From Bifidobacterium thermophilum DSM 20210 (GTDB lineage: Bacteria > Actinomycetota > Actinomycetes > Actinomycetales > Bifidobacteriaceae): 64,000 nt of DNA. The notes below the pieces were generated by a model. The model was not told where the DNA came from, ran no database searches, and worked only from the letters and a program-made list of their open reading frames with translations. The translations under genes were made by a program, and so were the position numbers. The stretch lies in contig JDUB01000001.1 of NCBI GenBank assembly GCA_000771265.1, positions 310,001-374,000 of the forward strand, read 5' to 3'. This document shows, piece after piece, positions 8,597 through 21,225 of the stretch (position 1 is its first letter; every line of letters begins with the position of its first letter).

Positions 8597-9796
8597 ATGA
8601 GTATGAAGAATCAGGAGTTTTCTGTGGCGGCTGGCAGCACCGAGGATGCCGGTCGCCCGCTGGTCATCGCGCTGGTCGTCGACACCGCGGGCAACGAGGG
8701 CAACGGCACGTCGAATTCGGCGTTGCAGTATGCCAAGGAGCTGCGCCGGCAAGGTCATACGGTCCGTCTGGTCGGTATCGGTTCGCCCGAGTATCCGATT
8801 CGCGTGCATCATGTCCCGCTGGTCTCTTGGATCGCGGCGAAACAGCAGATGCAATTCGCGCAGCCTGACCGGGCGATGTTCCGCAAGGCGTTTGAGGGCG
8901 CGGATGTGGTCCACGTGTACCTGCCGTTCAAATACGGCCGCATGGCGGTGCGGACCGCACATGAGATGGGCATCCCCGCAACTGCCGGATTCCACTTGCA
9001 GCCGGAGAACGTCCTGTATTCGGCGGGGCCGCTGCGGTATATCCCCGGCGCTTCGGCGTTCATCTACTGGCTGTTCGACCGCATGCTGTACCGGCATATC
9101 CGGCATATCCACACGCCCTCGCATATGATCGCCGCGCAGTTGCGGGCGCATGGCTACCGGCAGCGACTGCATGTGATCTCCAACGGCTATTCGCCCAGAT
9201 TCACCGCCAAACAGCAGCGTGAACCCGGTTCGCCGTCGCCAAGACCGTTCAGAATCGTCGCTTCGGGGCGTCTAGCCAGCGAGAAGGACCATGTGACGCT
9301 GATTCGGGCGGTCGCGTTGAGCCGGCATGCCGAGGATATCGAATTGTCGATTTGCGGCACCGGGCCGTTGCAACATGAACTGCGGCGAATGGCGGCGCAA
9401 TTGCTGCCCGGACGTTGGTCGATCGGTTTCCATGACAATGCGCAGATGCCCGCATTCCTGCGTTCGTGCGATCTGCTGGTGCACCCTTCGATTGTTGATA
9501 TCGAATCGTTGAGCGTTCTGGAGGGCATGGCCTCCGGACTTGTGCCCGTCATCGCCAGGTCCACGCAGAGCGCCGCCGGGCAGTTCGCATTGAACGACCA
9601 TTCGCTGTTCGAAGCCCAAGACCCGGCCATGCTCGCCCAACGCATCGATTGGTGGATTGACCATCCTGACGAGTTGAGCCGTTGGGGTGCCGTCTATGCC
9701 GAGCACACGCGTGAGGAGTATTCGATTGCATCGTGCGTGCGTAAGTTCGTCGCGATGGAACGCGAAGCGATCGCCGACTTCGATGGCAGGTTGTGA
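8597..9796 (+). CDS. GT4-type glycosyltransferase
   Basis: This is probably a retaining GT-B glycosyltransferase of about 399 residues. The N-terminal half begins with a Rossmann strand and a GNGTSNSALQYAKELRRQGH segment typical of the acceptor domain. The C-terminal half has ASGRLASEKD and PSIVDIESLSVLEGMASGLVP, the E-x7-E pattern of GT4 enzymes that binds the sugar-nucleotide donor. Family members include diacylglycerol glucosyltransferases and phosphatidylinositol mannosyltransferases; the acceptor here cannot be set from sequence. The start ATG at 8597 lacks a good ribosome site; TACGAT lies seven bases before it, so a leaderless transcript is possible. It lies 48 nt after purT. Confidence 0.85.
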   Translation: MSMKNQEFSVAAGSTEDAGRPLVIALVVDTAGNEGNGTSNSALQYAKELRRQGHTVRLVGIGSPEYPIRVHHVPLVSWIAAKQQMQFAQPDRAMFRKAFEGADVVHVYLPFKYGRMAVRTAHEMGIPATAGFHLQPENVLYSAGPLRYIPGASAFIYWLFDRMLYRHIRHIHTPSHMIAAQLRAHGYRQRLHVISNGYSPRFTAKQQREPGSPSPRPFRIVASGRLASEKDHVTLIRAVALSRHAEDIELSICGTGPLQHELRRMAAQLLPGRWSIGFHDNAQMPAFLRSCDLLVHPSIVDIESLSVLEGMASGLVPVIARSTQSAAGQFALNDHSLFEAQDPAMLAQRIDWWIDHPDELSRWGAVYAEHTREEYSIASCVRKFVAMEREAIADFDGRL

Positions 9797-17367: not shown

Positions 17368-17435
17368 TGCGTGTGCGGCTGCGCAAGGAGTGCGGCGGGT
17401 GCGGCTGTGCGTCTTGCGTGGTTGCGGGGGCAATC

Positions 17436-17467
17436 GGGTCATCCGGAGGGAAACCTCCGTATGACCC
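17436..17467 (+). terminator. Terminator after the transporter operon
   Basis: A hairpin pairs GGGTCAT (17436-17442) and CGGAGG with CCTCCG and ATGACCC (to 17467) around a GAAA loop, with one base-pair offset. It is followed by ATTGTTGTGTTTG. It lies 70 nt after potD. Confidence 0.7.
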
Positions 17468-17618
17468 ATTGTTGTGTTTGGGGGAGTACTGGACTGATCG
17501 TGCTTGACTGGACTTTGGGCTCATTCGTGATGCGGAGTGCGTCAATCGCGCAATGGCGTGTTGGTGCGTGATGACAGTGGTGCCGCCTTCCGCGTCACCC
17601 GGCGTCGTGCCCGTCATC

Positions 17619-17934
17619 GTGTGAGGATTCGCTCGCATGGTGACCGGTTGGTTGGGTCGGATGTTGTGGATGGGGTGGTTTGAGGGTGGTTGTGTGAGGT
17701 TTGGCTCACACGGTGACCGGTTTGGTGCACGGGATCGTTGATTCGGTGGTGCGAGTCTGCCATCGTGTGAGGATTGACTCACAAGATGGCGGTTGATATG
17801 ACCGGGATACGGCCTGAAGACTGCGTATCCGTCGTTGTGCGGGGATTCGCTCACATGGCGGACATGTTCCCGCCTTCCATCGCCTGGCTGACAGTCCGTC
17901 CACCGGTCCGTGCGAGGTTATACTCACATGCCGG
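17619..17934 (+). repeat. Array of five palindromic repeats with a 73-bp period
   Basis: Five related units start at 17619, 17692, 17765, 17837 and 17910 (intervals 73, 73, 72 and 73 bp). Each begins GTG(T/C)GAGG, has a 5-6 nt variable centre, and closes with CTCACA or a one-base variant, so each can fold into a 6-7 bp stem. Units 1 and 2 are alike over 36 nt (30 of 36 positions, including GGTGACCGGTT). The remaining sequence between units is different each time. No cas gene is in the window. The array could be a decayed CRISPR (36 + 37 nt) or an array of protein sites spaced seven helical turns apart. Confidence 0.75.
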
Positions 17935-18186
17935 GCCCCATCGTCGCCTGAGGCGTTGGCGCTCATGAATCCTTGGTATTCCTGGCCAATCCCCAAATCT
18001 CCCATCGGCCGCAATCTGGACGAGCCCGACACGATGCTCACCGCGGCTGCGAATCGCCTCTCGAAAGCGAACATCCATGTTGACGAATTGTTACGAGTGG
18101 AAAAACAGTTCCGGAATCAGAAATCCCAACGAAATAATGCGGGTTTTACCTATGAATGTACGAAATTCGTAGTCAAGTCGATAGAA

Positions 18187-20209: not shown

Positions 20210-20880
20210 TTCCCGGCTCGTGCCCGCGAGGAGACAGTGTGCATCAGGTCCTTGGCACTCTCGCAATCGTCGCTCTCACAACCGGGTTATTGGGGTTATA
20301 TACCGGAATGTGTGTCCGGTGGTGGTGTGTATGGGAGCCTGGATCATCGTTCCGGCCTGCGTGCGCATCCTGTATGCCGTGGCATGCGAAGCCGGACAGA
20401 TGTCGATGGAAAGCGGCGGCATGCCTCCGTGTCCCGCGGCTTGCGCATGCCCGAACATACGTAAGCCGGCATGTCACCCCTGGGATGGGACGTGATGTCC
20501 CGCGTCTGCCGTGCGGCGTATGCCGGGGCATACGCAAACCGGCATTACCGTACCCAGGCCGGCAGGGAGACCTTCCAGCAGGCGGGTCCTGTATGCTGTG
20601 GCATGCGCGGCGCGGCGCATTAGAACCGCCCGCACGCCTTGCGCCGCAACAGGTCCGTGCCGATTCCGGGCACGTATTCCGGTCCGGCTCGAAAGTGGCG
20701 GCGTGGGGATCCGGAGCCGCGACACGCCCGGCAGGACACCCCCCCCACACCCGATTCCGGACACACATTTTCGCCAATAACCCGCGGAAGCGCTGTCACG
20801 AAGCTTTATCCAGCGGCCTGCCCGTCGTGTTCCGCCGTCACGAATCCGGCGTTTCTTTTTCTGCCGGTCTGCGCAAATCC
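20210..20880. other. Gap between tRNA-His and the RNA candidate
   Basis: It contains the second 73-bp array and, further on, CCGATTCCGG twice (20660-20669 and 20751-20760), each followed by (G/A)CAC. Long frames cross the region in several phases, but all are GC-rich shadows with Arg/Pro-rich products and no ribosome sites. Confidence 0.5.
20370..20618 (+). repeat. Second palindromic array, four units, exact 73-bp period
   Basis: Units start at 20370, 20443, 20516 and 20589, exactly 73 bp apart. Each is a palindrome of the type (C/G)(T/C)GTATGCC-G-GGCAT(A/G)CG followed by a conserved AA(G/A)CCGGC tail in the first three. Units 1 and 4 share CCTGTATGC(C/T)GTGGCATGCG (20 nt, one mismatch), and units 2 and 3 are alike at about 24 of 30 positions. 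The 43-nt stretches between them differ. A weaker copy differing mainly by transitions may sit near 20297. The sequence is unrelated to the array at 17619, but the period is the same. Confidence 0.75.
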
Positions 20881-20894: not shown

Positions 20895-21225
20895 TGAAGG
20901 CCGGAGTTGGATTCAGCCGAGCAAGTCGGCGGGATCCAATGGAGCGCAAGCCCGTAAGGGCAGGTGCAACGCCTTCGAGATAATTCAATATCGAAAACTG
21001 AATATTGGTGATGATTATGTGCGGCACGGGCAGTACGGCAAGGTAGGCCGGGCCGCTGAAGCCAGCTGGCGTAACAAGCGCATGAGGCGCTAGGTATGTT
21101 GTGTTGGTGAATGGCATAAGGTTTAGGTTGCCGCGCGAGGTGGCGCGGCGTTGGACATGATGATCACCTCCTTCCAGGTGGCCCCCGCAGATGCAGTTAG
21201 GCATCGCGGGGGCCACCTCATTTTT
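20895..21225 (+). ncRNA. Candidate structured non-coding RNA of about 330 nt
   Basis: The segment runs from just after a perfect TATAAT to a very strong terminator and has no credible reading frame. The 5' part can fold into a two-part stem: TTGGATTC with GGATCCAA, enclosing AGCCGA with TCGGC. Further stems are GCCC-GTAA-GGGC, GCGGC/GCCGC, GCCAGCTGGC, GCGC/GCGC and CCGCGC/GCGCGG. Near the 3' end GATCACCTCCTT (21162-21173) equals the tail of 16S rRNA, and CACCT there can pair with AGGTG at 21176-21180, competing with the terminator stem. It lacks the conserved motifs of RNase P RNA, tmRNA and SRP RNA. The identity is unknown; a raiA-type or lineage-specific RNA is possible. Confidence 0.55.
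21176..21225 (+). terminator. Strong terminator of the RNA candidate
   Basis: A 13-bp stem (21176-21188 with 21206-21218) is extended by GATGC/GATGC-complement pairing (21190-21194 with 21201-21205) around a 6-nt loop, then CATTTTTCC. This is among the most stable hairpins in the window. Confidence 0.85.

Follow-up and report, generated by a model that had tools for sequence, protein, structure and literature searches.

REP and BIME units are interspersed, intergenic palindromes that vary in copy number by whole motifs and are possibly bound by nucleoid proteins. The matS and parS sites, recognized by MatP and ParB, are short palindromes present in many copies and bound by dimers, which assemble into higher-order complexes. 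In Table 1 of a 2015 CRISPR survey (PMC4521832), a cas-less array of five 23-bp repeats, TTGTGTGAGGATTTGCTCGCACA, is listed as "Undetermined" in B. thermacidophilum subsp. porcinum. In the open-access literature searched (subscription journals and preprints were outside the search), this was the only paper found to print the palindrome called F1 below, and no functional description of it was found. Here, we describe two unrelated families of DNA-site palindromes, F1 and F2, which form arrays at dozens of intergenic loci within one small clade of Bifidobacterium. The starting point was a 64,000-nucleotide stretch of the Bifidobacterium thermophilum DSM 20210 genome, referred to as the window (positions 310001 to 374000 of contig C1; the assembly, G000, comprises 2.22 Mb in 48 contigs).

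Two unrelated palindromes with one 73-bp step

The F2 array of the window consists of four GTATGCC-type palindromes (20372-20606), with a tRNA-His gene on one side and the ribosomal S12 gene (rpsL) on the other. Its dyads start at 20372, 20445, 20518, and 20591, a spacing of 73/73/73 bp. When the outer boxes are included, each unit has a 44-bp footprint, to which no strand is assigned: unit 1 at 20358-20401 (core GTATGCC-GT-GGCATGC, 20372-20387), unit 2 at 20431-20474 (GCATGCC-CG-AACATAC, 20445-20460), unit 3 at 20504-20547 (GTATGCC-GG-GGCATAC, 20518-20533), and unit 4 at 20577-20620 (GTATGCT-GT-GGCATGC, 20591-20606). The F1 array, 2.7 kb away, is flanked by genes for a solute-binding protein and a class-III aminotransferase and has five GTGTGAG-type palindromes, with dyads starting at 17619, 17692, 17765, 17837, and, for a degenerate fifth, 17910 (spacing 73/73/72/73). 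All five units are on the plus strand: 17611-17646 (GTGTGAG-GATTCG-CTCGCAT, core dyad 17619-17638, with the asymmetric core GATTSR reading on that strand), 17684-17719 (GTGTGAG-GTTTGG-CTCACAC), 17757-17792 (GTGTGAG-GATTGA-CTCACAA), 17829-17864 (GTGCGGG-GATTCG-CTCACAT), and 17902-17937 (GTGCGAG-GTTATA-CTCACAT). The last was found by direct match and lies under the profile threshold used below, which also drops some diverged units. Comparison of the consensus sequences, GTGYGAG-GATTSR-CTCRCAY for F1 and GTATGYC-NN-GRCATAC for F2, shows that the two palindromes are unrelated. A preliminary description of the window, made from the sequence alone, had claimed an exact 73-bp period for the F2 array and no relation between the two palindromes. 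Both claims held, and the unit positions it gave (20370, 20443, 20516, and 20589) are in the same register, 2 bp upstream.

Two other inverted repeats were seen near the arrays. A long hairpin at 17435-17466, GGGTCATCCGGAGG-GAAA-CCTCCGTATGACCC, lies 3' of the solute-binding protein gene and resembles an ordinary terminator; a related hairpin is present in B. apri and is not obvious in genome G101 or in B. boum. A perfect 13-bp inverted repeat at 21176-21218, AGGTGGCCCCCGC/GCGGGGGCCACCT, lies upstream of rpsL and is possibly a terminator or an attenuator.

An F1 unit measures about 36 bp and has arms with the boxes CTCACAC and TGRC around a conserved asymmetric 6-bp core, which occurs as GATTGG, GATTCG, GATTCA, GATTGA, or GATCCG. 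The core direction is uniform in 33 of the 39 arrays and mixed in the other 6, and no relation was found between F1 core orientation and the replication strand as judged by local GC skew. The F2 unit has the symmetric half-site GRCATACGCAA, a random 2-bp center, and outer boxes about 18 to 22 bp from the center. F1 spacers carry a weak motif near their midpoint, where columns 31, 32, 37, 41, and 42 exceed 99.9% of the null, and spacers are G-rich on the strand of unit orientation. The median identity of adjacent spacers is 0.43 for F1 and 0.39 for F2, against 0.37 and 0.35 for comparisons with other arrays and about 0.33 after shuffling. The spacers of neighboring units are thus diverse and nearly unrelated, although the spacing is kept.

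In the whole genome of B. thermophilum, we counted 157 forward matches to GTGTGAGN6CTCACA when up to one mismatch was allowed, compared to 1 for the reversed control, and 91 to the F2 palindrome GTATGCCNNGGCATAC when up to two were allowed, compared to 9. Almost all F1 and F2 copies examined are located in intergenic arrays at dozens of loci, and none of the arrays falls within a called gene (array contexts rest on simple open reading frame calls). The strands of the two flanking genes are ++ in 20 cases, +- in 20, -+ in 15, and -- in 11, with no preference for gene direction, and the consistent placement 3' of genes expected of terminators was not seen in these contexts. In the draft assembly, several contigs break off within an F1 array or next to one (C12 end, C23 start, C4 end, and C20 end). 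The C12 end and the C23 start carry the same array units, so the array repeats probably break the assembly.

Position-weight profiles built from the whole-genome matches were run over fetched loci of four related species. F1 intervals were 73 bp in 138 of 196 cases, 74 bp in 34, 72 bp in 16, and another length in 8; F2 intervals were 73 bp in 120 of 163 cases, 72 bp in 25, 74 bp in 11, and another length in 7. As the fetched loci were partly picked for holding sites, these counts characterize the arrays and should not be read as an unbiased census. Pairs of similar palindromes at lags of 30 to 200 bp were also sought in 264 kb of the B. thermophilum genome not chosen for arrays; this unsupervised scan ranked 73 bp first and 146 bp second. 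Autocorrelation of palindromes alone was too noisy for pairs and gave a 73-bp peak for triples only, the extra matches being coding sequence. Where F1 and F2 arrays adjoin, the junctions of 38 to 112 bp show no helical phasing (vector strength, 0.21 to 0.23; P about 0.4), and F1 and F2 complexes would therefore share no single lattice.

These results bear on the view in the preliminary description that a period shared by two unrelated palindromes is unlikely to be due to chance, a view to be refuted if 73 bp were not the commonest period and the two arrays were isolated. The view held, with both families in genome-wide excess over their reversed controls. The refutation failed, as 73 bp was the top lag of the unsupervised scan and both families extend through the genome.

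Constraint, turnover, and distribution of the arrays

Under strict unit-by-unit orthology between species, half-sites of F1 diverge by 2.8% and spacers by 16.5% (Fisher P = 1.7e-7); the values for F2 are 7.1% and 14.4% (P = 0.018). The net length change is at most 1 bp in each of 31 orthologous intervals from one unit to the next. There are 0.10 indels per substitution inside arrays versus 0.39 in the flanks just outside, i.e., about 4-fold fewer. The sample is small (15 F1 units, 10 F2 units, and 11 control flanks), and the profile used for unit detection is slightly biased toward conserved units. When four orthologous arrays were compared more crudely, without filtering, palindromes (7.0%) and spacers (6.9%) had diverged equally, and the contrast between half-sites and spacers emerges only under strict orthology. 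With the reservation that orthologous pairs are few, we conclude that the half-sites and the 73 ± 1-bp step evolve under constraint. The common spacing constraint suggested in the preliminary description is thus supported, the step being kept to 73 ± 1 bp in hundreds of F1 and F2 intervals and to within 1 bp between orthologues.

Orthologous arrays of different species differ by whole units, with 5 versus 6 or 4 versus 6 units and alignment gaps of 73 and 146 bp. At another locus (L168/L208), one unit corresponds to four. In the trio L201/L050/L220, with 6, 3, and 2 units, the shorter arrays have a hybrid unit, its left portion from unit 1 and its right portion from unit 3 or 5, and the exchange points fall within the palindrome. 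One- or two-unit duplications have occurred recently at L204 and L217, and some F2 arrays at different loci are paralogous over more than 200 bp. Some orthologous loci have lost or lack the array, which means that none of the arrays is essential by itself. One orthologous slot (L046/L211) holds nine F1 units in B. thermophilum and four F2 units in B. apri. Neither clean insertion ends nor target duplications were seen where an empty orthologue was tested. The arrays gain and lose whole units via exchanges inside palindromes. As to the suggestion of a common way of origin in the preliminary description, what is supported is a common mode of change, in which whole 73-bp units are gained or lost through recombination between palindromes.

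We investigated the distribution of F1 and F2 in 112 genomes of the genus. The two families occur together in the same five, namely those of B. thermophilum, B. apri DSM 100238 (G008), B. boum LMG 10736 (G014), G101, and, sparsely, G049; elsewhere only background was seen. The first four form one clade with EF-G identities of 95 to 99%, and the next genome is at 88%. F1 was found in no other genome among 395 sampled across the phylum, and IMG/VR gave no exact match to the F1 core. Mapped F1 and F2 counts per 400 kb are 12 to the right of oriC, 6 to the left, and 7 opposite the origin. A role in an origin domain is not supported for these families, as the sites are not confined to one chromosomal domain.

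The EF-G of G049 is only 85% identical to that of B. thermophilum, and its clustered array copies all flank a single cod-type gene cluster, which is 95% identical to that of G101 and is enclosed in the layout F2-F1 ... F1-F2. On contig C6 of G049 (L199:19017-19590 and L200:8154-8700), similar broken transposase-like frames lie in inverted orientation at the ends of a 7.7-kb block, and this block holds the F2 and F1 arrays around the cod-type cluster. The disparity between 95% for the cluster and 85% for EF-G, together with the inverted transposase-like frames, leads us to read this as horizontal transfer, likely mediated by insertion sequences, which carried the arrays into a distant species. 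The idea that the G049 arrays are themselves the ends of a mobile element was rejected in favor of this reading on the same evidence. RAYT transposases (PF01797) were also considered as mobilizers of F1 and F2 and rejected, since the 7 of 112 genus genomes that encode one include none of the five array genomes.

A third palindrome family with a 51-bp step

The unsupervised scan, applied to three other species, revealed a third family, F3, with the palindrome TGTCCGATTC-N4-GAATCGGACA (also TGTCCGWTTC-N4-GAATCGGACA) in arrays with an exact 51-bp step. Examples are found at L270:183-286, 1295-1550, and 9298-9401, at L268:17125-17279 in genome G041, at L278:12289 in G019, and across 64 to 279 kb of contig C1 in G001. 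F3 is present in 20 of the 112 genus genomes, about 13 of them with at least 13 copies, and none of these is an F1/F2 genome. In complete genomes, F3 clusters 50 to 150 kb to one side of oriC, unlike F1 and F2; G001 has 21 copies in the 400 kb to the right of oriC, 1 to the left, and none in a 400-kb stretch opposite the origin. The F3 palindrome is listed in the same table of PMC4521832 as an "Undetermined" CRISPR in B. dentium and B. ruminantium. F3 resembles F1 and F2 in forming palindrome arrays with an exact step and diverse spacers and in this CRISPR listing; it differs in its palindrome, its ruler, its genomes, and its one-sided clustering near oriC. That F3 belongs to the same functional class is possible, by analogy and from the array layout only.

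Interpretation, rival explanations, and known systems

Our preferred reading is that the F1 and F2 arrays are architectural docking arrays of dimeric DNA-binding proteins. We hold this inference as likely to be right as wrong, with no binder identified and no data from cells. The criteria for phased binding-site arrays are met, in that the symmetric half-sites are conserved and vary independently and the spacing is under constraint. Each palindrome would bind a dimeric protein, one per family, perhaps paralogues. As 73 bp is about 7.0 turns at 10.4 to 10.5 bp/turn, neighboring dimers would face the same side of the helix, where they may contact each other or wrap the DNA, and an array would nucleate one ordered nucleoprotein complex. 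Within arrays, units 6 or 8 turns apart hardly occur, so helical phase alone would be insufficient and the distance itself must be set by the assembly, for example, through wrapping or a rigid linker. The F1 spacer-midpoint motif and the F2 outer boxes are, we infer, as expected of an extended protein-DNA lattice. The arrays show no regard for gene direction, and an F1 array in one species can occupy the intergenic slot that holds an F2 array in another. The most likely output is therefore architectural and would lie in anchoring or bridging the nucleoid at intergenic points, or in its topology there, with regulation of adjacent genes less likely.

An RNA-level reading, in which the arrays are transcribed into hairpins at 73-nucleotide steps (a small RNA or protection or termination hairpins), has some support from folding, which was somewhat better than in shuffled sequences in three of the four strand/array combinations (z scores of -2.3 to -2.8), the exception being the plus strand of the F2 array (z = -1.4). 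Against it, no covariation of the arms was found across F2 dyads (total z = -0.9, as expected from independent half-sites); that for F1 (total z = 2.2) is carried by three positions and is absent in the set from B. thermophilum only. G·U-type pairs across F1 and F2 dyads are not favored over A·C, the arrays have no orientation relative to genes, and an Rfam search matched tRNA only and none of the arrays. RNA hairpins are therefore very unlikely, and the processing at 73-nucleotide steps proposed for checking in the preliminary description is not supported. Degenerate or orphan CRISPR arrays would account for a constant period with diverse spacers, and one F1 array was so listed in 2015. This can be all but excluded: arms and core differ between units of every array, so the repeats are not near-identical; the arrays occur at dozens of loci; adjacent spacers can be homologous; and F1 and F2 share a period with unrelated repeats. 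The window arrays had no match in the single collection tried for each, plasmids for F1 and phages for F2, at low stringency and without the spacers of other arrays. No cas gene was matched by PADLOC among seven proteins beside the window arrays, tested at this locus only; the only defense-system matches were ABC-ATPase cross-hits, and the neighbors are an ABC transporter, an aminotransferase, a tRNA, and rpsL. Arms without covariation and random gene orientation favor DNA-level dimer sites over RNA hairpins, terminators, and CRISPRs.

Among DNA-level readings, selfish or neutral interspersed palindromes (REP/BIME-like or satellite), which would spread by tandem duplication and dispersal and inherit the 73-bp step from founders, remain possible. 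The whole-unit changes between species (5 versus 6, 4 versus 6, 1 versus 4, and 3/6/2), the recent duplications, the F2 paralogy, and the presence or absence of arrays at orthologous sites all speak for them. On the other hand, half-sites have diverged less than spacers, intervals have kept their length better than the local indel rate predicts, the step is common to two palindromes that are unrelated, RAYT is missing from the five array genomes, and empty orthologues show no clean ends or target duplications. Operator arrays, at which transcription factors regulate neighboring genes, would fit the independently varying palindromic half-sites and the intergenic position, and TGTGAG, the F1 half-site, is similar to known operators of HTH proteins. 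We consider them unlikely: arrays are no rarer between convergent than between divergent genes (20 versus 15), the neighbors are functionally unrelated (phosphorylase, tRNA synthetase, DnaB, and glycerate kinase), and there are hundreds of sites. Sites of a site-specific, tyrosine-type recombinase are suggested by the inverted F1 arms around a conserved, directional core (GATTSR), by the exchange points inside the palindrome at L201/L050/L220, by the F1 arrays of mixed orientation, and by one orthologous unit whose core is reversed between species in the array alignment. With recombination only inferred, this too is unlikely, as the F2 center is a random 2 bp, no core is inverted in the 15 F1 units compared under strict orthology, the same deletions arise equally from ordinary slippage between direct repeats, and the spacers hold no genes.

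If the docking-array reading is right, each genome holds several hundred regularly phased sites, belonging to at least two families that share a ruler, which have either gone undescribed or been mislabeled as orphan CRISPRs. They would point to a DNA-binding protein able to sense how far apart its sites lie (73 bp in one clade and 51 bp in others), would make directly testable in vitro how nucleoid proteins build regular higher-order complexes, and would correct the bifidobacterial CRISPR catalogue. A bolder inference, without binding data and in our estimate less likely than not, is that F1 and F2 (73 bp, in the boum group) and F3 (51 bp, in other species) represent an unrecognized class of chromosome-architecture systems, in which fixed-step arrays would scaffold sequence-specific, polymerizing DNA-binding proteins as a bacterial analogue of positioned chromatin particles. 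Some of these arrays already stand in the literature as cas-less CRISPRs.

With CRISPR arrays, F1 and F2 share a repeat of about 36 bp plus a spacer of about 37 bp and a spacing that varies by only ±1 bp; they differ in that the repeats of one array are not identical, the chromosomal loci number in the dozens, the half-sites are constrained, and no cas genes were seen next to the arrays of the window. The REP/BIME elements of Enterobacteria and Pseudomonas, including BIME-2 arrays and REPINs, are similar as intergenic interspersed palindromes in short arrays with whole-motif copy variation, whereas the F1/F2 genomes lack RAYT, keep a strict 73-bp ruler in two unrelated palindromes, and have mostly one core orientation per array. 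Like matS and parS, F1 and F2 are many short palindromic DNA sites, for which binding by dimers is inferred; unlike them, they are organized as fixed-step tandem arrays, in two families, and are not confined to ori or ter.
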